The position numbers and the translations under genes were made by a program. From Acidobacteriota bacterium (GTDB taxonomy: Bacteria > Acidobacteriota > UBA4820 > DSQY01): 64,000 nucleotides of DNA. Where the stretch lies: NCBI GenBank assembly GCA_021787565.1, contig JAJYLT010000002.1, forward strand, positions 1 to 64,000, read 5' to 3'. The notes beneath the pieces were generated by a model. That model worked only from the letters and a program-made list of their open reading frames with translations. It did not search any database and was not told the origin of the DNA. Shown here in pieces: positions 182-15,338 of this stretch. Numbering within the stretch: position 1 is the stretch's first letter; the number at the start of each line of letters is the position of its first letter.

Positions 182-268
182 GCCGAAGTGGCGGAACCGG
201 TAGACGCAGTGGACTCAAAATCCACCGGCCGCAAGACCATGGGGGTTCGAGTCCCCCCTTCGGCACCA
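182..268 (+). tRNA. tRNA-Leu (anticodon CAA)
   Basis: The acceptor arms GCCGAAG and CTTCGGC pair and encoded ACCA ends the gene. The anticodon stem GTGGA/TCCAC holds the loop CTCAAAA, giving anticodon CAA. A long variable arm (class II) is present, followed by a T arm containing GGTTCGAGTCC. Its 3' 57 bases are duplicated at 6905-6961, so it is the attachment site of the adjacent element and integration rebuilt an intact gene. Confidence 0.95.
212..268. repeat. attL: 57-bp direct repeat in tRNA-Leu
   Basis: This is the tRNA segment from the anticodon stem to CCA, identical over all 57 bases to 6905-6961. The identity stops at both sides (G versus A before it, C versus A after it), so it defines the maximal crossover core for the integrase. 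Confidence 0.9.
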
Positions 269-306: not shown

Positions 307-452
307 CCGTCCTCGACCGCCTCACCTCGGTTTCACAGGAATTTCACATCCTGAGCCGTCCAACCCCCCCCGGCGGCTCCTCACCCGTTGCCCGTGTTGC
401 AATAACTTAAAAAGGCGGCCGATGAGGCGCCACTCCTCCGCATCCCCGAGCA

Positions 453-489
453 TCACGCCAGCGCGTGACGATAGCGTGACGCGTCACGC
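453..489. promoter_or_regulatory. Two stacked palindromes built from GCGTGA(CG)
   Basis: TCACGC (453-458) faces GCGTGA (463-468), and the perfect 16-bp palindrome GCGTGACGCGTCACGC fills 474-489. The dyad centres are 21 bp apart, two helical turns, which suggests cooperative dimer binding on one DNA face. Candidate ligands are the element's AlpA-like protein, its RepA-type protein or an unidentified repressor. It could be an origin or an operator; no target gene is certain. Confidence 0.5.
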
Positions 490-512
490 AAAATCACAAC
501 AAGCAGAAGCAG

Positions 513-743
513 CGGATCACCCCCACGTGCGTACGCGTCATGGCGCTCGCGTCGATCGCGGCGTCTTCCTCGGCGGATCACCCCCACGTGCGTACGCGAA
601 CACCTACGATGCGTCGCGTCAGCGCAGCGGAATCTGCACACAAGCAGAAGCAGCGGATCACCCCCACGTGCGTACGCGTCATGGCGCTCGCGTCGATCGC
701 GGCGTCTTCCTCGGCGGATCACCCCCACGTGCGTACGCGTCAT
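513..743. CRISPR. CRISPR-like mini-array, module present twice, no cas genes
   Basis: Four copies of a 29-nt repeat start at 513, 574, 654 and 715. Copies 1, 3 and 4 are identical; copy 2 differs in its last four bases. Repeats 1-2 and 3-4 enclose the same 32-nt spacer (542-573 and 683-714), giving a 61-bp period, the usual type I-E unit. The first half, CGGATCACCCCCACGTG, matches the 3' half of type I-E repeats read on the opposite strand. The second half has ACGCG where the stem partner GGGG is expected, so the hairpin is altered. A 14-nt block, ACAAGCAGAAGCAG, precedes repeats 1 and 3, so the whole repeat-spacer-repeat module has been duplicated. An alternative reading is iterons for a replication protein. 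Confidence 0.4.
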
Positions 744-851
744 CGCGGACCGGAGCCGCCGCCAGAAGACCCGTAGGCGACGAAAAGAGAGCGGCCCGTT
801 AGAACATACAGGCCACCCCCGTTTCATTCGTCGTGGTGGTTCCTAGAGAGA

Positions 852-875
852 GGGGGGGGCCGTGAAGCCCCCCCC
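852..875 (-). terminator. GC-rich hairpin downstream of the element's minus-strand genes
   Basis: Eight G plus C (852-860) pair with G plus eight C (867-875) around a six-base loop. It lies 20 bp past the stop codon of the coiled-coil gene and probably ends the element's minus-strand transcript. There is no clear U tract. Confidence 0.4.
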
Positions 876-894: not shown

Positions 895-1680
895 TTAGAA
901 GCCCACTACCTCTGGCGAGGCCAAAAGGAGCGGCTGGGGGTGGCTCTGCCCGAAGTGGCCACCGCAACCGGCTAGGCAGGACGCGTCGGCGAGAGGCACG
1001 ACAAGGTCAACCCCGAGCCCTTCGCTGTAGGCCGGCACCCGGAGGGTGGTTTCCGCCAGCCGATCGCGCTGCTTCCAGGCCAGGTTGCGGAGTAGAGCGT
1101 CGGTCTCTCCGAGGAACCTGGAATAGGTTCCGTAAAGGGTGTTGTCCTTGGGGTCGCATTTCTCCCGAAGATGCTGCGCCCTCGCTCTGCGCAGGACCAC
1201 GCGGCCCAAGCGGAGCCCGGCCTCCTTGGCCAGCGTCAAAGCCTCCTCGATGTCCTCAGCGCTTTCCTTGGCGCCCTTGTCCAGGGCCTCCAGGTGTGCC
1301 AGGCGCCATTCCCACTGCCGCCGCTCCTCGTGGGCTGCCTTGGCGGCGGTGAGGCTGGCGACAGCCTCATCAACTGCGGTCTGGGCAGAATCCTTCATCC
1401 GGCCCAGCCCAGAGAGCCGAGCCCGGCCCATTGCGGAGGCTGCGAGGGTGGAGCGAAGACGTTCTTCGGTCTCTGTGTCCGAGGCTCCGCTGGCAAGGGC
1501 GGTCTCCACCTCCGCCTGTGCAGCTTCGAGAGCCGCCAGCTCCACCGAAGCGGCCTTCTGCCGGGCCTCCACATCGGCGAGGTGCTGCTTCGCATCCTCC
1601 ACTGCCCGTTCCCGCGTCTCCACCTCCTCCGCGAGCCGGGCCAGGGTGCCTTCCGTCATGATCGCCTCTGCGGTCTTCAT
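895..1680 (-). CDS. Coiled-coil protein of unknown function
   Basis: 261 aa from the ATG at 1680. I chose this start because it lies just past the stop of the gene at 1683-1889, as expected for translational coupling; the open frame continues upstream through that gene. Residues of about 10 to 190 are rich in Ala, Glu, Lys and Arg in heptad-like order (EEVETRERAVEDAKQHL and similar), predicting a long coiled coil. The last 70 residues are not coiled and end in a Cys/Gly/His-containing tail. There is no signal peptide or membrane segment. It is the last gene of the element's operon. I do not recognise a family. Confidence 0.7.
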   Translation of the reverse strand: MKTAEAIMTEGTLARLAEEVETRERAVEDAKQHLADVEARQKAASVELAALEAAQAEVETALASGASDTETEERLRSTLAASAMGRARLSGLGRMKDSAQTAVDEAVASLTAAKAAHEERRQWEWRLAHLEALDKGAKESAEDIEEALTLAKEAGLRLGRVVLRRARAQHLREKCDPKDNTLYGTYSRFLGETDALLRNLAWKQRDRLAETTLRVPAYSEGLGVDLVVPLADASCLAGCGGHFGQSHPQPLLLASPEVVGF

Positions 1681-1892: not shown

Positions 1893-2261
1893 TCACGCTC
1901 CTTTCTGGTTCTGGGGTGGGGCAATTACCTTGCCCTGGGTAATTCCGTTGATCCTGGGGCTTCCTACGGCGTCGTTTTTCGGCCGGGGGTGGCACCGACA
2001 GCAAATCCACGGACCGGGGGCCTCGGTGCCGTCGGTGTAGCGGACCATACCGCGCCAGAAGTCCGAGCCTCGGCAAGTGAAGCACGAGATGGGGGGGGTT
2101 GACTCGGGCACCAGCCGGAGCAATGAGGCTTTGCACTCCCTCACCCGCTGTAGGAGGTTCGCTGGCACCGCTTGGGGCGGGGCGAGCCGCAGCCGATCCC
2201 CATGCCGGGTAATGGTGACTCCTGCCGCCTGTAATTCGGTGAGCACTTCTGCCGCGTTCAT
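1893..2261 (-). CDS. TubC-like N-terminal domain / zinc-binding small protein
   Basis: 122 aa. Residues 1-55 (EVLTELQAAGVTITRHGDRL to LLRLVPE) match the short alpha-beta fold seen in TubC docking-domain-like proteins that are frequent cargo of mobile elements. Residues 60-90 hold CFTCRGSDFW and WICCRCH, probably a four-cysteine zinc site. It lies 4 bp after the RepA-type gene and within the same operon, so a replication or regulatory accessory role is plausible but unproven. Confidence 0.6.
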   Translation of the reverse strand: MNAAEVLTELQAAGVTITRHGDRLRLAPPQAVPANLLQRVRECKASLLRLVPESTPPISCFTCRGSDFWRGMVRYTDGTEAPGPWICCRCHPRPKNDAVGSPRINGITQGKVIAPPQNQKGA

Positions 2262-2265
2262 TGCC

Positions 2266-4017
2266 CTAGACCTCCATGAAGGCTTTGAGCGCCGCCGACG
2301 GGTCTAACAGGGAATCCGGTTGGGCGACAGCTCCCGACTGCTCCAAAATGCGGCAGTCCGAATGGAGGTCCGGAGCCATTTCTACTGTGCCCACCCCTTC
2401 GCTTGGCACACTTGGCACACTTCGATTTTTGCTTTCTACTAACGTGCTATTTTTCATGTGTGCCAACTGTGCCAAACCGGGAGTTGGTACACTTCGATTA
2501 AGCTCCCAGTACCATTCCCCATCCAAGGGGTTCTTCGAGGATTTCCAGGCCAGTAAGCCAGTTTCGCGGACCCGAAACAGGGTCCGGCGGGAAATTTCGG
2601 CCTTTTCGGCCTTTTTCCGGATTTCGTCGGACGAAACCGGACCGTCAGCCAGGAGGTCGGAGAGAAATTCGGCGGCTTCCTCCAGGGCTCCCCCACCATG
2701 CGGACCGCTCCCGGCCCCGGACTGGTCCAGGAGGGACGACGCCGTGTGCGGAGAAACGCCCTCCCATCGAATTCGGGCCACTTCCCCAAGCCCGTCTAGC
2801 ATCACGCCCTCCATCTCATACTGGAGGCTTGGGGCTTCCGGCCCGAGGTTGTTCTTCGAGGAGGACAAGACACGCACGCTTGGGTTTCCGGGGTCCTTCG
2901 CCACAAGGAAGCCGCTACGCGCCGCCCCGCCGATTCCGATGCTACCACCGCCCCTGTAGAGCGGAGAGCCTCCCGCGTTGGCTCCCTTGTTCAAGTGCCG
3001 GACGATCAACACGCTTGCCCGCAGCCGCTCCGCCATGGCTTCGAGGGGTGCGAGCGCGCGCCGAACATCCTGGTCGCGGTGTGAGTCCACGCCTCCGCTC
3101 AGGAGGGCCATTAGGGGGTCCAAGATAACCAGCCGGGCACCAACCCGGAGGGCGGCCGCCTCGATCACCGGGATGTCGGCCGGAAGGGTGGGGATGCGCT
3201 GCCCCCCTTCGGCGTCGGGAACGCCGGATAGGGCGACGATCCGCGACAGGTTGGCCCCGGCCGCCTTCAACCTGGGAACGATGGTATCACCCACCCCGTC
3301 TTCCACGCTCACCACCAAGGCACCGCCCAACAGCCCCGGAGAGCCGTCGGGCATCGGCGCCCCCGTGGACAGCCGGGCGGCAAGGTCAAGGGTCAAGGTG
3401 GACTTTCCACAGCCGGGATCACCGTCCAGAACCGCGATTTTCCCCAAATAAAGGCGGCCCTGCCACAGCGGGGAAACGGCCTCCGGGACTACCTCGGAGC
3501 ACAACACGCCGGGGGGTTTGGCCGCCTTGCTCCCTTCCAACCCATCGCGCATTCTGGCGAGCCGTACGAACCTACGGAGGAGATCACCAGCTCGTGCTTC
3601 CTGCCCGGCGGCGGTTGCCGCCCCGAGCTCGACGGCGAGGCTCGAAAGGCAGGAGTCCAACGCCCCAAGCCGGAGAGCCAGGCCGTACGAGGTGATGGCC
3701 CCCTGCTTCATCTTCAGTAGATCACCGTCGGCAAGCGCCGACAGGCCCTCGAAGCCTCCGATCCGATCCACGATATGCCGGGGATCATGAGCCATGAGGG
3801 CATCGCTCACGGCCGCCAAGTCGTACGGGAGGCCTGCTTTATGGCGGGCCGCCAGGAACCGCGCAAGATCACGTTGGCCGGAGAGCGGGAAGTCGACCGG
3901 TCGAACGTGGCGCAGCACGTCGGCAGGATCAGCCCCCGATAGGATGCGGCCGAGGAGCCGGTCACCCATGGCCTGAAGCTCGCCAAAGGTCGCAGTCGGC
4001 AGGGGTTCCGCGTTCAC
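2266..4017 (-). CDS. RepA-type AAA/RecA-fold ATPase (replicative helicase-like)
   Basis: 583 aa. Residues of about 10-110 resemble the helical DnaB N-terminal domain (ILSGADPADVLRHVRPVDF, then GGFEGL). Walker A is GDPGCGKST near residues 199-207 and Walker B is RLVILDPLMALL near 290-300, followed by RHLNKG, matching plasmid RepA/KaiC-like hexameric helicases. A winged-helix-like segment lies near 460-520. It probably unwinds the element's origin after excision. The start overlaps the previous small gene by 4 bp. No primase gene accompanies it, so host primase is presumably used. Confidence 0.8.
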   Translation of the reverse strand: MNAEPLPTATFGELQAMGDRLLGRILSGADPADVLRHVRPVDFPLSGQRDLARFLAARHKAGLPYDLAAVSDALMAHDPRHIVDRIGGFEGLSALADGDLLKMKQGAITSYGLALRLGALDSCLSSLAVELGAATAAGQEARAGDLLRRFVRLARMRDGLEGSKAAKPPGVLCSEVVPEAVSPLWQGRLYLGKIAVLDGDPGCGKSTLTLDLAARLSTGAPMPDGSPGLLGGALVVSVEDGVGDTIVPRLKAAGANLSRIVALSGVPDAEGGQRIPTLPADIPVIEAAALRVGARLVILDPLMALLSGGVDSHRDQDVRRALAPLEAMAERLRASVLIVRHLNKGANAGGSPLYRGGGSIGIGGAARSGFLVAKDPGNPSVRVLSSSKNNLGPEAPSLQYEMEGVMLDGLGEVARIRWEGVSPHTASSLLDQSGAGSGPHGGGALEEAAEFLSDLLADGPVSSDEIRKKAEKAEISRRTLFRVRETGLLAWKSSKNPLDGEWYWELNRSVPTPGLAQLAHMKNSTLVESKNRSVPSVPSEGVGTVEMAPDLHSDCRILEQSGAVAQPDSLLDPSAALKAFMEV

Positions 4018-4208
4018 GGCCGCACTGCCAAGGAAACCAACAGGGCCAGGGCCAGCCAGAGGAGCCCGGCGGTCATGAGTCCGAGGATGGCCGAAGCTCG
4101 CGAATGATCAGGGGGTTGCACGGGTTCTTTTGGGGTGCTAGATTGGGAATGCAAGGTTTGCGCTCCTTCTTCTACGAACCGGCGGCACTCGCTATGCTGC
4201 CGGTTCAT
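4014..4208 (-). CDS. Small single-pass membrane protein (64 aa)
   Basis: It overlaps both neighbours by 4 bp, which strongly suggests coupled translation. The N-terminal 35 residues are polar; residues of about 40-62 (SAILGLMTAGLLWLALALLV) form one transmembrane helix ending in RP. No family is recognised. Its place between the HTH and helicase genes suggests an element-specific function. Confidence 0.6.
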   Translation of the reverse strand: MNRQHSECRRFVEEGAQTLHSQSSTPKEPVQPPDHSRASAILGLMTAGLLWLALALLVSLAVRP

Positions 4209-4438
4209 TGCTTTGCCTCCCGGTCAACCGTCTCTTGAGCCGTGGAAGTGGCGGAATGGGCTTCGAGCCACGCTTCCACGTCGGACCGTCTGTACCGGGT
4301 CCGCCCCTTCCGCCCACCCAGGCGAATGTACTTCGGGCCTTTCCCCTGCATACGCCACCGGGCTAGGGTGAATGGGTTGAGATTGATAGCTTTCGCCGCC
4401 TCTGGGCCGGTCAGCATCTCCTCGATCATCTTCTGCAC
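4205..4438 (-). CDS. AlpA/excisionase-like helix-turn-helix protein
   Basis: 77 aa in the MerR-like HTH_17 style: LTGPEAAKAINLNPFTLARW forms the helix-turn-helix, followed by the wing with YIRLGGRKGRTRYRRSDVEAWL. Such proteins bend att DNA for excision or regulate integrase genes. It overlaps the downstream membrane-protein gene by 4 bp, and the 30-bp palindrome at 4494-4523 lies 56 bp upstream of its start, where an autoregulatory site could be. Confidence 0.8.
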   Translation of the reverse strand: MQKMIEEMLTGPEAAKAINLNPFTLARWRMQGKGPKYIRLGGRKGRTRYRRSDVEAWLEAHSATSTAQETVDREAKQ

Positions 4439-5026: not shown

Positions 5027-5055
5027 AATGTCCCCGTACACATGGGGGTGAACCG
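5027..5055 (+). repeat. Solitary type I-E-like CRISPR repeat
   Basis: The 29 bases AATGTCCCCGTACACATGG plus GGGTGAACCG have the layout of a type I-E repeat: TCCCCG, a short central loop, then GGGGGTGAACCG. CCCC and GGGG can pair as in a normal crRNA stem. It is on the opposite strand to the array at 513-743. No second copy lies 61 bp away, so it is a lone unit or a relic. Confidence 0.4.
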
Positions 5056-5064
5056 CGCAACATC

Positions 5065-5191
5065 GCCGATGTCGTCGGACAGGTGCTCGATCTCCGGATG
5101 GACCGTCAGCGGACAGGAGCCGATGTCGTCGGACAGGTGCTCGATCTCCGGATGGACCGTCAGCGGACAGGAGCCGATGTCGTCGGACAGG
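5065..5191. repeat. 54-bp tandem repeat, 2.35 copies
   Basis: A 54-bp unit beginning GCCGATGTCGTCGGACAGG starts at 5065 and 5119 with identical sequence, and a third, 19-bp partial copy starts at 5173. CGGACAGG recurs twice in each unit. It fills most of the gap between the 136-aa and 99-aa genes (4903-5207), which holds no convincing gene. Possible roles are iterons or an unstable satellite repeat. Confidence 0.7.
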
Positions 5192-5207: not shown

Positions 5208-5507
5208 TTACGCCTCCACCGCTGCGACGCCGAAGGCTTCCTCCCACTCCATTTCATGCTCGGGGAGGCTGTCCCACAGCTCCATAGCTTCCTCGCGGGT
5301 GGTGGGCTCCAAGGTGTCCAGCTCGCCTTCCCACTGGGTCAGCCGGACGGTGAAGAAGTTTCCCTTCGCCGTCTTATAGAGGTAGGTGTTATGGCCGTGG
5401 CGCTCGAAGTTATGGCCGTCCCAATAGCAGTCATGCGCCACGACTTCAGCCTTGGCGGTGCTGTACCGCGTCCCTGAAATTGTCCGCTCCATGTCCACGG
5501 GTTTCAT
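5208..5507 (-). CDS. Small phage/element protein (99 aa), function unknown
   Basis: Compact acidic protein beginning MKPVDMERTISGTRYSTAKA, with a central aromatic/His-rich stretch (CYWDGHNFERHGHNTYLY) and an acidic C-terminus (SLPEHEMEWEEAF). The pattern of a short beta-rich domain followed by an LPEHE helix recurs in small proteins of mobile elements, as far as I recall. Its start overlaps the integrase stop by 4 bp, so it is probably co-translated with integrase. Confidence 0.65.
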   Translation of the reverse strand: MKPVDMERTISGTRYSTAKAEVVAHDCYWDGHNFERHGHNTYLYKTAKGNFFTVRLTQWEGELDTLEPTTREEAMELWDSLPEHEMEWEEAFGVAAVEA

Positions 5508-6730
5508 CTCTTCGCCTCCTTCACGAGATACAACTTGCTCCTCTGCTCGCTCGCCGCGTTCGTGGCCTTCGACAGCTCATCAATCCCAAGCGGCGAGTAG
5601 ACCCGCGCCGTGATGGCCACGTTGCTATGTCTCAGGAGCCGGGAGGCCACGTGCACCCCGGCGGTTCTGGCGATGGCCAGCCCATACGTTCGGCGGAGGT
5701 CGTGAAGATTCACATCCGGCACCTTGGCGGCCACGCGGACGGCCTGCCAGGGCCTCTTGAGGTCCGCCCTCGGCTTCTCTGGCTTGAGTCCCGGGACGAT
5801 GAAGGGTGAGCCCTCCACGCGCGGCAGGGCTCGCAGCATTTCCACGGTGGAGTCGGCTAGCGGGATTTGCTCGCCCGTCCTCCCCGACTTGGGCCGTGGG
5901 ATGCGCCAGAGCTTACCGTCCAGGTCGAAGTCTGCCCACGTGGCGCGCAGCACTTCCGATGTCCTGGCTCCTGTCTCAATGAGCAAGGTGAAGGCGGCCC
6001 GCTCGAATGGATCATCCAGCCGGGATACGGCGATCAAGGCGCGGCCTAGCTCATCGTCGTTGAGGACGCGTTGCCGGGGTGGGTTCTCGGGGAAAGGCCG
6101 AATGCGCAAGGCTGGGTTGGTGGGGATCAGCCCTCGGCGCCACGCGTGGGCCAAGCAGGCGCGGATGCTGGCCAGGAACCGATTGGCCGTCGTGGTTCTC
6201 GAAGGGTTCCGTCCCTTCCACCGAGCCGACGGACCGAGCCCCTCAACCTTGACCAGCTCCACCAGCCGCTCGATATCCTCGGTGGTGATCTTGGTCAAGG
6301 GCAACGTCCCCATGCGCTTCACGGCGAAAGCAAGGAAGTGCTCATCACTGCGAACGTGGGCCTTCTTCTCGCGGATCAAGGCCAGGTACTCAGCTACCCA
6401 CAGCTTGAAGGTTTGGGCCGTTGCCTTACGGCCCTCTACCTTCTGATCCTGGGGATCAACCCCCATGGCCACCTTGCCCGCTGCTACCCTGGCCACCTCA
6501 CGGGCCTGGGCGAGGGTGAGGGGTCCATAGCGGCCTATGGTGAGCTGGCGCCGACGATTGGGTGGACCATAATAGAAGATGAAGGTCTTCGCGCCGGACG
6601 GGAAGACTTGGACGCCGAAGCCGTGTTGGTCCGAGTCGAAGAGCCGGAGCGAGGGCCTGCCCGGCGGGCAATGGAGGGCATCAATGACCACCTTAGTTAG
6701 TCGTTTGGTTTTCTTGGGTTTCCTGGTCAT
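5504..6730 (-). CDS. int: Tyrosine recombinase (P4/DUF4102-type integrase)
   Basis: 408 aa from the ATG at 6730; an in-frame start at 6790 would add 20 unlikely residues. Residues of about 8-90 are the DUF4102 arm-binding domain (YYGPPNRRRQLTIGRYGPL). A SAM-like core-binding domain spans about 105-205. The catalytic domain shows Arg in ETGARTSEVLRATW (about 254), HDLRRTYG (about 345), LLRHSNVAITARVYSPL with the later His (about 370) and nucleophile Tyr (about 380). It catalyses integration and excision at the tRNA-Leu 3' end and lies 175 bp from attR. Confidence 0.92.
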   Translation of the reverse strand: MTRKPKKTKRLTKVVIDALHCPPGRPSLRLFDSDQHGFGVQVFPSGAKTFIFYYGPPNRRRQLTIGRYGPLTLAQAREVARVAAGKVAMGVDPQDQKVEGRKATAQTFKLWVAEYLALIREKKAHVRSDEHFLAFAVKRMGTLPLTKITTEDIERLVELVKVEGLGPSARWKGRNPSRTTTANRFLASIRACLAHAWRRGLIPTNPALRIRPFPENPPRQRVLNDDELGRALIAVSRLDDPFERAAFTLLIETGARTSEVLRATWADFDLDGKLWRIPRPKSGRTGEQIPLADSTVEMLRALPRVEGSPFIVPGLKPEKPRADLKRPWQAVRVAAKVPDVNLHDLRRTYGLAIARTAGVHVASRLLRHSNVAITARVYSPLGIDELSKATNAASEQRSKLYLVKEAKR

Positions 6731-6904
6731 GTCCGGTCTCCGTTCCGGGTGGAAAGCACTCCATTTCCTTCCTTTCCACAGCACATTCACAGGAAGCAGG
6801 GCCGGGAAGGGTGGTTACTCGGTTATGCTCCCTGGCCTAAATCTAGGGCTTTGCGCTTCACTTGTCAATGGTGGGTGGGTGCCCGGAAATGGTCCGACCG
6901 GGAG

Positions 6905-6961
6905 ACTCAAAATCCACCGGCCGCAAGACCATGGGGGTTCGAGTCCCCCCTTCGGCACCAA
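6905..6961. repeat. attR: second copy of the tRNA-Leu 3' half
   Basis: Identical for 57 bp to 212-268, ending in GGCACCA. The sequence before 6905 cannot form a D arm or the 5' acceptor strand, so this is not a functional tRNA. The native chromosome resumes at 6962 with the original terminator. Confidence 0.9.
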
Positions 6962-6974
6962 GGATTGTGCCCGG

Positions 6975-7000
6975 GCGGGGAGGGGAAACCCTCCCCGCCG
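6975..7000 (+). terminator. Original tRNA-Leu terminator
   Basis: GGCGGGGAGGG and CCCTCCCCGCC form a perfect 11-bp stem around GAAA, 14 bp past the CCA of the displaced tRNA 3' end. The U tract is weak (TGTTT). A near copy is at 7238-7261. Confidence 0.6.
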
Positions 7001-7200
7001 GTGTTTCCGTCCTCATCGAAGGCGCGAGAAGGGGAGGCGAGAAGGGCGGGAGACGGCGTAGGCCCGCCGCGAGAAGACGAGCGAAGAGCGAGCGTTCGCA
7101 GCGAAGCGGGGCAAGCCGAGGGACCCGCCCCGGGAACCATAGGCGGCCTTGAAACGCAGCCGCGAGACCCGCGAGCGGCGAGGCTTCTAGGCCGCGTAGG

Positions 7201-7261
7201 TTCGAGTCCCCCCTTCGGCACCAAAGATGGTTCCCGGGCGGGGAGGGGAAACCCTCCCCGC
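7201..7261. repeat. Third tRNA-Leu 3'-end remnant with its terminator hairpin
   Basis: The 23 bases 7201-7223 equal the T arm to CCA of tRNA-Leu, and GCGGGGAGGG-GAAA-CCCTCCCCGC (7238-7261) repeats the native terminator. The preceding bases do not form the rest of a tRNA. It is probably an older attachment-site scar. Confidence 0.6.
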
Positions 7262-7371
7262 TGGTGTCTGCGGATGCGGCGAAGGCACGAGAAGGGGGGG
7301 CGAGAAGGGCGGGAGACGGCGTGGCTTCAGCGAGAATGCCACCGCAAAGCGCCCCTCGGCGGGGGATTCAT

Positions 7372-13917: not shown

Positions 13918-14532
13918 ATGCCCGTTCGAGAAGAAGCCTTTCCGTTCGCCGGACCTCCGGCCGTGGCCGGCGTGGCCCTGGCGATCCTGGGGCATCCCGT
14001 CTGGTGCGGCGCACTCCTGCTCGTGAGTCTGTGCGCGTGCGCCTTCTTTCGCGATCCGGAACGGCATCCGCCGCCGGACGGGCGTTTGATCGTGGCCCCG
14101 GCGGACGGGCGCATCCTCATCGCGAGAAGGGAAGGGGAGCACACCAAGATCAGCATCTTCATGTCGGTGTTCAACGTGCACGTCAATCGCGCACCCTCCG
14201 ACAGCCGGGTCTCAGCCTCGTTGTACAACCCGGGCAAGTTCCTGGCCGCGTGGAACGACAAGGCCTCCCTTGACAACGAGCAGGTCAGGATCCAGTTGAA
14301 GACCGAACACGGCCCTGTGGAAGTGGTTCTCATCGCGGGCCTGATCGCGAGAAGGATCGTGTGTTGGGCCGTCGAGGACCGGCAGTTCAGGCGGGGCGAA
14401 AGGATCGGTCTGATCCGATTCGGTTCGAGGGTGGACCTGCTGCTCCCGGCCGACGAGGTCGAACTTCTCGTCGCGCCGGGGGAGCGGGTGCGGGCGGGCC
14501 GTACGCCGGTGGCCCGCTGGAGCGTGGGCTGA
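13918..14532 (+). CDS. psd: Phosphatidylserine decarboxylase (short, archaeal-like type)
   Basis: 204 aa from ATG 13918, chosen for AGGGGGAGG eight bases upstream; an ATG at 13897 is in frame but lacks such a site. Two hydrophobic segments occupy residues of about 12-42. VAPADGRI and FMSVFNVHVNRAP are family motifs. The pyruvoyl-forming cleavage site is the Gly-Ser in IRFGSRVDLLLP. It converts phosphatidylserine to phosphatidylethanolamine at the membrane. Its stop overlaps pssA. Confidence 0.92.
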   Translation: MPVREEAFPFAGPPAVAGVALAILGHPVWCGALLLVSLCACAFFRDPERHPPPDGRLIVAPADGRILIARREGEHTKISIFMSVFNVHVNRAPSDSRVSASLYNPGKFLAAWNDKASLDNEQVRIQLKTEHGPVEVVLIAGLIARRIVCWAVEDRQFRRGERIGLIRFGSRVDLLLPADEVELLVAPGERVRAGRTPVARWSVG

Positions 14533-15338
14533 TGACTCCTCGCCGTCTGGGCCCCCTCGCGCGAGTCGGCCGGCCCATCCCTATCCGGAGGGGCGTGGCC
14601 GCCCTCCCTTCGCTCTTCACCGTCGCCAACATGTTCTGCGGGTACTACGCCATCATCCTGGGTTCCAAGCACAGGTTCGAGTGGGCCGTCACGCTGGTCA
14701 TCATGGCCGGCATCCTGGACAGCCTGGATGGGCGTATCGCGCGAATGACGGGCACCTCCAGCGAATTCGGAAAGGAGCTGGACTCGCTTTCGGACTTCCT
14801 CTCCTTCGGTCTCGCGCCGGCTCTGATCCTTTACCACTGGGGATTCGCTGACCTCGGGCGCACGGGTTGGCTCTTCGCTTTTCTCCTGCCGGTGGCGGGG
14901 GCCCTGCGATTGGCGAGGTTCAACGTCCAGGCCGCCAAGGTGGACAAGCGCTACTTCGTGGGGCTGCCGATCCCGGCGGGCGCGGCCGCCGCCGTTCTCC
15001 CGCTCTACTTTTTGCCCGAGGGGCTGCCGCCGGCCTTTAAGGCGGCGGCTCTGGCGTACGTGGTGGCGCTCTCGTGGCTCATGGTGAGCACGATTCGCTA
15101 CCGGTCTTTCAAGGAGTTCGACTGGCGGGAGAGGCGGCCGTCGCGGCTCGTCTTCGTGCTGGCCCTGGTGCTGGTGCTCGTAGCCCTCTACCCGACGCTC
15201 ATCCTGCTCCTCCTGGCCGTCGGATACGCCCTGTCGGGCCCGGCTGGCTGGGTATGGATCAAACTGATCAGACGGAGCTACCCAGCCGGAGAAGAGGGGC
15301 CTCCGGAGATCGCCGGGGAGGAGCAGCATGAACCCTGA
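14532..15338 (+). CDS. pssA: CDP-diacylglycerol-serine O-phosphatidyltransferase
   Basis: 268 aa. The start overlaps the psd stop as ATGA. The CDP-alcohol phosphotransferase motif D-G-x2-A-R-x8-G-x3-D-x3-D is seen as DGRIARMTGTSSEFGKELDS followed by LSD near residues 65-88. About seven transmembrane helices follow. It makes phosphatidylserine, the substrate of the upstream decarboxylase; the pair supplies phosphatidylethanolamine. Confidence 0.93.
   Translation: MTPRRLGPLARVGRPIPIRRGVAALPSLFTVANMFCGYYAIILGSKHRFEWAVTLVIMAGILDSLDGRIARMTGTSSEFGKELDSLSDFLSFGLAPALILYHWGFADLGRTGWLFAFLLPVAGALRLARFNVQAAKVDKRYFVGLPIPAGAAAAVLPLYFLPEGLPPAFKAAALAYVVALSWLMVSTIRYRSFKEFDWRERRPSRLVFVLALVLVLVALYPTLILLLLAVGYALSGPAGWVWIKLIRRSYPAGEEGPPEIAGEEQHEP

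Follow-up and report, generated by a model that had tools for sequence, protein, structure and literature searches.

In this work we have analysed a window of 64,000 nucleotides at the start of an Acidobacteriota contig, in which a sequence-only reading had seen a duplicated CRISPR-like module carried by a small integrative element. The carrier was recognised correctly: it extends from a tRNA-Leu(CAA) gene to a 57-bp duplicate of the 3' end of that gene (Table 1), and no cas genes were found within it, in agreement with what had been stated. Judged by its sequence, the gene set, comprising an integrase, an AlpA-type HTH protein, a RepA-like protein and small proteins, is organised like a phage satellite or a small integrative element. 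For the coiled-coil protein neither a relative in viral contigs nor a structure match of note was found, and padloc gave weak matches to other coiled-coil proteins only. Some 240 bp past attR there is a third partial tRNA-Leu 3' end (7182-7300), whose 119-nt flank is 82% similar to 6919-7037, and which resembles a scar left by a previous integration at this tRNA. An exact tandem repeat begins shortly beyond the solitary repeat at 5027-5055.

Relatives of the RepA-like protein occur mostly in elements of Actinomycetota. One of these elements, from Haloactinopolyspora alba (L033), has at 14474-14687 four 28-nt repeats, CTCCCCGCCGCCCGCGCCCGGGCAGGAC, with a period of 61-62 nt; unlike normal spacers, several of the unique stretches between or after them have hairpins, and from the neighbouring ORFs tested integrase and AAA_25 were the only Pfam families obtained.

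Table 1. Features of the integrative element and of the repeat array (window positions; L051 is the sibling tRNA-Pro element on contig C2)
Feature	Position	Strand	Remarks
tRNA-Leu(CAA), integration target	182..268	+	ARAGORN; 3' end 212-268 = attL
Replication-type gene fragment	427..512	+	79/86 identities to L051 12811-12893, minus strand; contains palindrome GCGTGACGCGTCACGC and block ACAAGCAGAAGCAG
Altered type I-E repeat R1	513..541	-	crRNA strand = minus
32-nt spacer, copy 1	542..573	-	no protospacer found
Altered repeat R2	574..602	-	last four bases AACA, not TCAT
41-nt linker between both 100-nt copies	599..639	.	
Second copy of 100-nt block 499-598	640..739	.	exact duplication
Altered repeat R3	654..682	-	
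32-nt spacer, copy 2	683..714	-	identical to copy 1
Altered repeat R4	715..743	-	ortholog, by alignment, of the sibling's intact solitary repeat (G000:C2:150441-150469)
Non-coding leader, 5' side of repeat	744..862	-	100% identical in sibling (L051 9471-9590); RNA-structured, z -4.4
Coiled-coil protein	895..1680	-	common to sibling
TubC_N-like protein	1893..2261	-	common to two other elements of host genome
RepA-like AAA_25 helicase/primase-type protein	2266..4017	-	
AlpA/excisionase-type HTH protein	4205..4438	-	
Intact solitary type I-E repeat AATGTCCCCGTACACATGGGGGTGAACCG	5027..5055	+	
54-nt tandem repeat, 2.4 copies	5065..5191	+	starts 9 nt past solitary repeat
Tyrosine integrase	5504..6790	-	
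attR, 57-bp tRNA-Leu 3' duplicate	6904..6960	.	exact copy of 212-268

Architecture of the array

The array starts 513 bases from the contig end. Its 25-nt core, CGGATCACCCCCACGTGCGTACGCG, occurs in exactly four copies (starts at 513, 574, 654 and 715), with no fifth copy elsewhere in the window at up to three mismatches and none in 100 shuffles; a 15-nt core of the altered repeat does not recur exactly anywhere else in the host genome. The copies form two repeat-spacer-repeat units of 29-nt repeats around a 32-nt spacer, with the exact 61-nt period of type I-E arrays (29-nt repeats with spacers of about 32 nt). The two pairs and their identical spacers had been described correctly, but the 29-mer is exact for three copies only: R1, R3 and R4 end in TCAT, and R2 differs in its last four bases. 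Both units are enclosed in an exact 100-nt duplication (499-598 and 640-739). R3 and R4 share 30 identical nucleotides, and the second spacer that would be expected after R4 from a plain tandem duplication is absent. On the left side the gene fragment is joined directly to R1, and on the right side the ancestral leader adjoins R4. The ACAAGCAGAAGCAG block that had been noted before each pair is the end of the 86-nt coding-gene fragment, whose gene is intact in the sibling element, and by this alignment it is not a CRISPR part.

The conserved 5' handle GTGATCCG is present in all four copies. The first and third of the seven type I-E stem pairs are broken and the repeat folds no better than shuffles, which bears out the earlier statement that the normal stem cannot form. 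The palindromic Cas6e stem-loop is found in the solitary repeats at 5027 and C2:150441 and in none of the four array copies, which Cas6e should not recognise, because the TCCCC of the 5' stem arm is now ACGCG(T).

Type I-E arrays carry different spacers that match foreign DNA; here there is a single spacer, duplicated. It had been suggested that this spacer be searched against phages, plasmids and its own genome, and that search yielded nothing: none of 396 genomes from the phylum, its own included, has a protospacer at up to three mismatches, and viruses, phages and plasmids gave neither a full match nor any match of note. A 20-nt exact match in four viral contigs was discarded as chance, since the four represent a single virus and the match does not extend beyond 21/32. 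Beside the array there is no seed match with a PAM, and within the element there are just distant matches of a 6-nt seed with a PAM.

The leader lies on the correct side for a CRISPR leader and has an RNA folding z of -4.4 alone and -4.6 together with the sibling repeat. No consensus promoter was found for it, and searches of phages and viral contigs gave no copy of it. It may belong to the transcript, serve as a promoter-leader, or be a DNA site with no relation to either, for example an origin or a packaging site.

Solitary repeats and their kinship to CRISPR

The same genome contains at least two more such elements, one in a tRNA-Pro gene on contig C2 (49-bp att) and one in a tRNA-Cys gene on contig C3 (44-bp att). 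One protein of the latter (L014 5127-5861) looks, by eye, like the small subunit of a terminase, as would suit a phage satellite. A one-mismatch search of the host genome located GGTTCACCCCCACGTGCGT at C2:150442, inside the tRNA-Pro element, where there is a single repeat of type I-E whose minus strand reads GATGTCCCCACGCACGTGGGGGTGAACCG and which forms a perfect 7-bp stem; beside it lies a different replication protein, of the DnaB type as identified by eye. The non-coding 5' flank of this solitary repeat, about 120 nt, is 100% identical to that of R4, whereas the coiled-coil gene beside the flank is far more diverged between the two elements. For this reason R4 is, on the alignment, the ortholog of the C2 solitary repeat. 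The two differ by the block change of TCCCC to ACGCG(T) in the 5' stem arm and by a T in place of A in the handle, and position by position the altered array repeat agrees with the intact one at 20/29. Since the new bases resemble the palindrome GCGTGACGCGTCACGC, about 20 bp left of R1, a template switch from this palindrome is a possible source of the new stem arm.

The pattern CGGTTCACCCCC-N8-GGGGAC has exactly three sites in the host genome (C2, C6:5030 and C20:2235), with none in a reversed control and none in eight family members at zero to one mismatch. The C6 site is the window repeat at 5027-5055, an intact solitary copy in the same element as the array that the sequence-only reading had missed. 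Like the sibling repeat it is solitary, intergenic and on a mobile element without cas genes, and the stem changes between the two are partly compensatory (A-U to G-U, C-G to U-A). The C20 repeat, with two broken stem pairs, is intergenic between ordinary genes and outside any recognised element. The three have the 29-nt unit alone in common, and their flanks differ. Other GGWTCACCCCC sites in the genome were rejected on inspection as chance matches, none having the ATGTCCCC arm and stem.

Are these repeats related to CRISPR? In a blastn search of 72,556 plasmids (7.3 Gb), the C2 solitary repeat gave 395 matching places, distributed over 38 records; most of these are CRISPR arrays, each matched at many places. 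It is identical at 27/29 to the repeat in Thermomicrobium roseum, present there as a 61-nt unit with two copies, and at 25/29 to the array of Thermus thermophilus HB8, which lies beside cas1e, cas2e, cas6e, cas5e, cas7e, casB, casA and cas3, and it also matched an array of Acaryochloris marina beside I-E cas genes, and Acetobacter persici. The Thermus array, on pTT27, shares with the sibling repeat an identical core, GTCCCCACGCACGTGGGG, and has a period of 61-62 nt; unlike the array studied here, with its altered repeats and no cas genes, it is a full array by cas1e-cas3. The two I-E repeats on the Thermomicrobium roseum plasmid lie 61 nt apart (L109 9001-9090), and the annotation shows no cas gene within 9 kb of them. 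One viral contig has a solitary repeat identical to the C2 copy at 28/29. Three related viral contigs (L072, L073 and L075) have a similar repeat, GATGTCCCCGCCCACGCGGGGGTGATCCG, directly after a promoter-like TATGGT, with more degenerate I-E-like hairpins behind it; this is likely a solitary-repeat locus. The 5027-5055 repeat gave two weak matches among the plasmids, one in a 61-nt array beside type IV csf2, and agrees at 22/29 at best with the array repeats compared and at 25/29 with a viral solitary repeat. Rfam gave no match, and is uninformative here, as it also missed a genuine I-E array.

The altered array repeat retrieved few arrays, and with two positions left free it was absent from both the viral collection and that of 84,980 species. 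Because of this, and of its 20/29 agreement with the intact form, the case for CRISPR descent of the array is built on orthology and not on the altered sequence alone. The I-E resemblance that had been pointed out is upheld by the orthologous intact repeat and by its matches to real I-E arrays, and its explanation by genuine common descent is, at the level of sequence, well supported.

The search for I-E cas genes in the rest of the genome, which had been proposed as a check, found no I-E signature genes, and neither did a search of the order. In targeted searches Cas1, Cse1 and Cas6e were all missing from the host genome, which is 98% complete, and the 13 genomes of its order have neither Cse1 nor Cas6e. 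Cas1 is present in two family members, whose arrays have a period of 69-72 nt and are not I-E. Cse1 was found in 2/60 relatives, both from other families of the phylum, one of them with ordinary 61-nt arrays.

Origin and state of the array

We propose, with somewhat better than even confidence, that the array is a cas-less mini-array of degenerate I-E repeats that arose from a solitary repeat unit (SRU, a Racr-type RNA anti-CRISPR) of a satellite-like element and has since decayed. Such elements carry a decoy RNA against CRISPR immunity, from which the array probably derives in broken form. Its origin from a solitary repeat is well supported, and its function is what we infer. SRUs on mobile elements act as RNA anti-CRISPRs, as shown with other elements (Camara-Wilpert et al. 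2023, PMC10651486), and the intact repeats found here would be members of this class. In the working state, in a type I-E host, the minus-strand SRU transcript, a structured leader followed by the repeat, would be bound and cut by Cas6e, and would tie up Cas6e/Cas7e as a Racr does. The array would have formed when one repeat and a 32-nt spacer were inserted at the single repeat, as in type I-E spacer acquisition; the short block change TCCCC to ACGCG[T] would then have destroyed the stem, and a later 100-nt segmental duplication, with its 41-nt linker, would have copied the unit. The unit looks like an insertion of repeat plus spacer because R3 and R4 share 30 nt and no second spacer follows R4. 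It is the geometry by itself that suggests acquisition at the SRU, and a chance duplication with a 61-nt period is a possible source of the unit.

The working units are likely the intact solitary repeats and not the array, and in type I-E hosts only. The array, as far as its sequence tells, is most likely inert in the present host, which lacks I-E genes, and all the repeats, the intact ones included, are probably silent there. The array should be inactive because the Cas6e stem is missing, and in RacrIF1 a mutation of the stem base abolished activity (PMC10651486). Several observations speak against our proposal: about 90% of SRU-bearing viruses infect CRISPR-bearing hosts (PMC10651486), whereas the present host has no matching system; the altered repeat is well removed from the intact SRU and retrieves few arrays; the spacer is matchless; the leader has no consensus promoter; and the C20 SRU lies between ordinary genes with a damaged stem.

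The repeats could instead be iterons or other protein-binding sites that are CRISPR-like by chance; RepA would bind them at a replication origin, or a helper terminase at a packaging site. Four direct copies close to an end of a small replicating element would suit this explanation, P4-like satellites carry such direct repeats, and the perfect conservation and the structure of the 120 nt next to them could be those of an origin or a cos/pac site. An iteron family is conserved with its cognate initiator, and this is not what is seen: the sibling retains one copy beside its DnaB-type protein, and other loci with RepA relatives have no such repeat. Both facts disfavour this explanation, which had been the alternative offered by the sequence-only reading; moreover, the best plasmid matches of the intact form are dominated by I-E arrays, and the three SRUs share the 29-nt unit and not the flanks. 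We regard it as unlikely. Of much the same low probability is that an I-E array once existed in a host or a plasmid and has left the intact repeats and the present array as inert remnants, dragged along by recombination and never selected. The repeat junctions do coincide with module boundaries, as where the gene fragment meets R1, one SRU is outside any recognised element, and the present host has no system to serve; yet the leader is more conserved than the adjacent coding DNA, the stem is partly kept by compensatory change, and SRUs occur in two different satellites.

More doubtful still is a functional mini-array, or a guide of the CreA kind, by which host Cascade would be directed at a rival element, at the host itself or at the promoter of a linked toxin, much as had been imagined for a competing element or host control. 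The exact 29+32 geometry, the handle kept in every copy and a leader on the correct side agree with it, and CreA genes also consist of two degenerate repeats around a spacer (PMC8501985). It is disfavoured because Cascade, target and stem are all lacking: the I-E signature genes are missing from host and order alike, no protospacer turned up, no seed match with a PAM adjoins the array, and the Cas6e stem is lost. In addition, CreA repeats diverge from each other, whereas those of the array are nearly identical. We consider equally improbable that the leader of about 120 nt and the repeat make up one longer structured Racr-like RNA of satellites, and that this RNA has diversified in the window, where its stem-swapped repeats and duplicated repeat-spacer-repeat would still act on Cascade through the conserved handle and without Cas6e.

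How does the derivation from a solitary repeat that we favour compare with described systems? The sibling SRU resembles the Racr SRUs (PMC10651486) in being single and intergenic, with intact stem and handle, on a mobile element without cas genes, and its 93% identity (27/29) to a genuine I-E repeat is above the 90% cut-off of that study. It differs from them in that its host has no matching subtype and that it follows a long conserved structured leader. The window repeat has turned into a four-copy array that does not have the intact stem base needed for Cas6 binding. Virus-borne mini-arrays without cas genes have been described (Medvedeva et al. 2019, PMC6858448), likewise with one or two spacers and leader-like sequence on the correct side, and stand-alone repeats also occur among them. 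Those, however, are archaeal, with intact repeats and spacers matching related viruses, whereas here one spacer is present twice, with no target, and the stem is lost. The antitoxin gene creA of CreTA (PMC8501985) similarly has a spacer between two degenerate repeats and retains the 5' handle; in our case the host has no Cascade, neither a linked toxin gene nor a promoter pairing with the spacer was recognised, and the repeats are nearly identical.

A single genome here holds both intact single repeats and, next to the same leader, a derivative in several copies, and it captures the step from solitary repeat to mini-array. If confirmed, this would mean that hosts lacking type I-E CRISPR receive mimics of its repeat from satellites, and it would help to decide whether solitary repeats can seed arrays by spacer acquisition.
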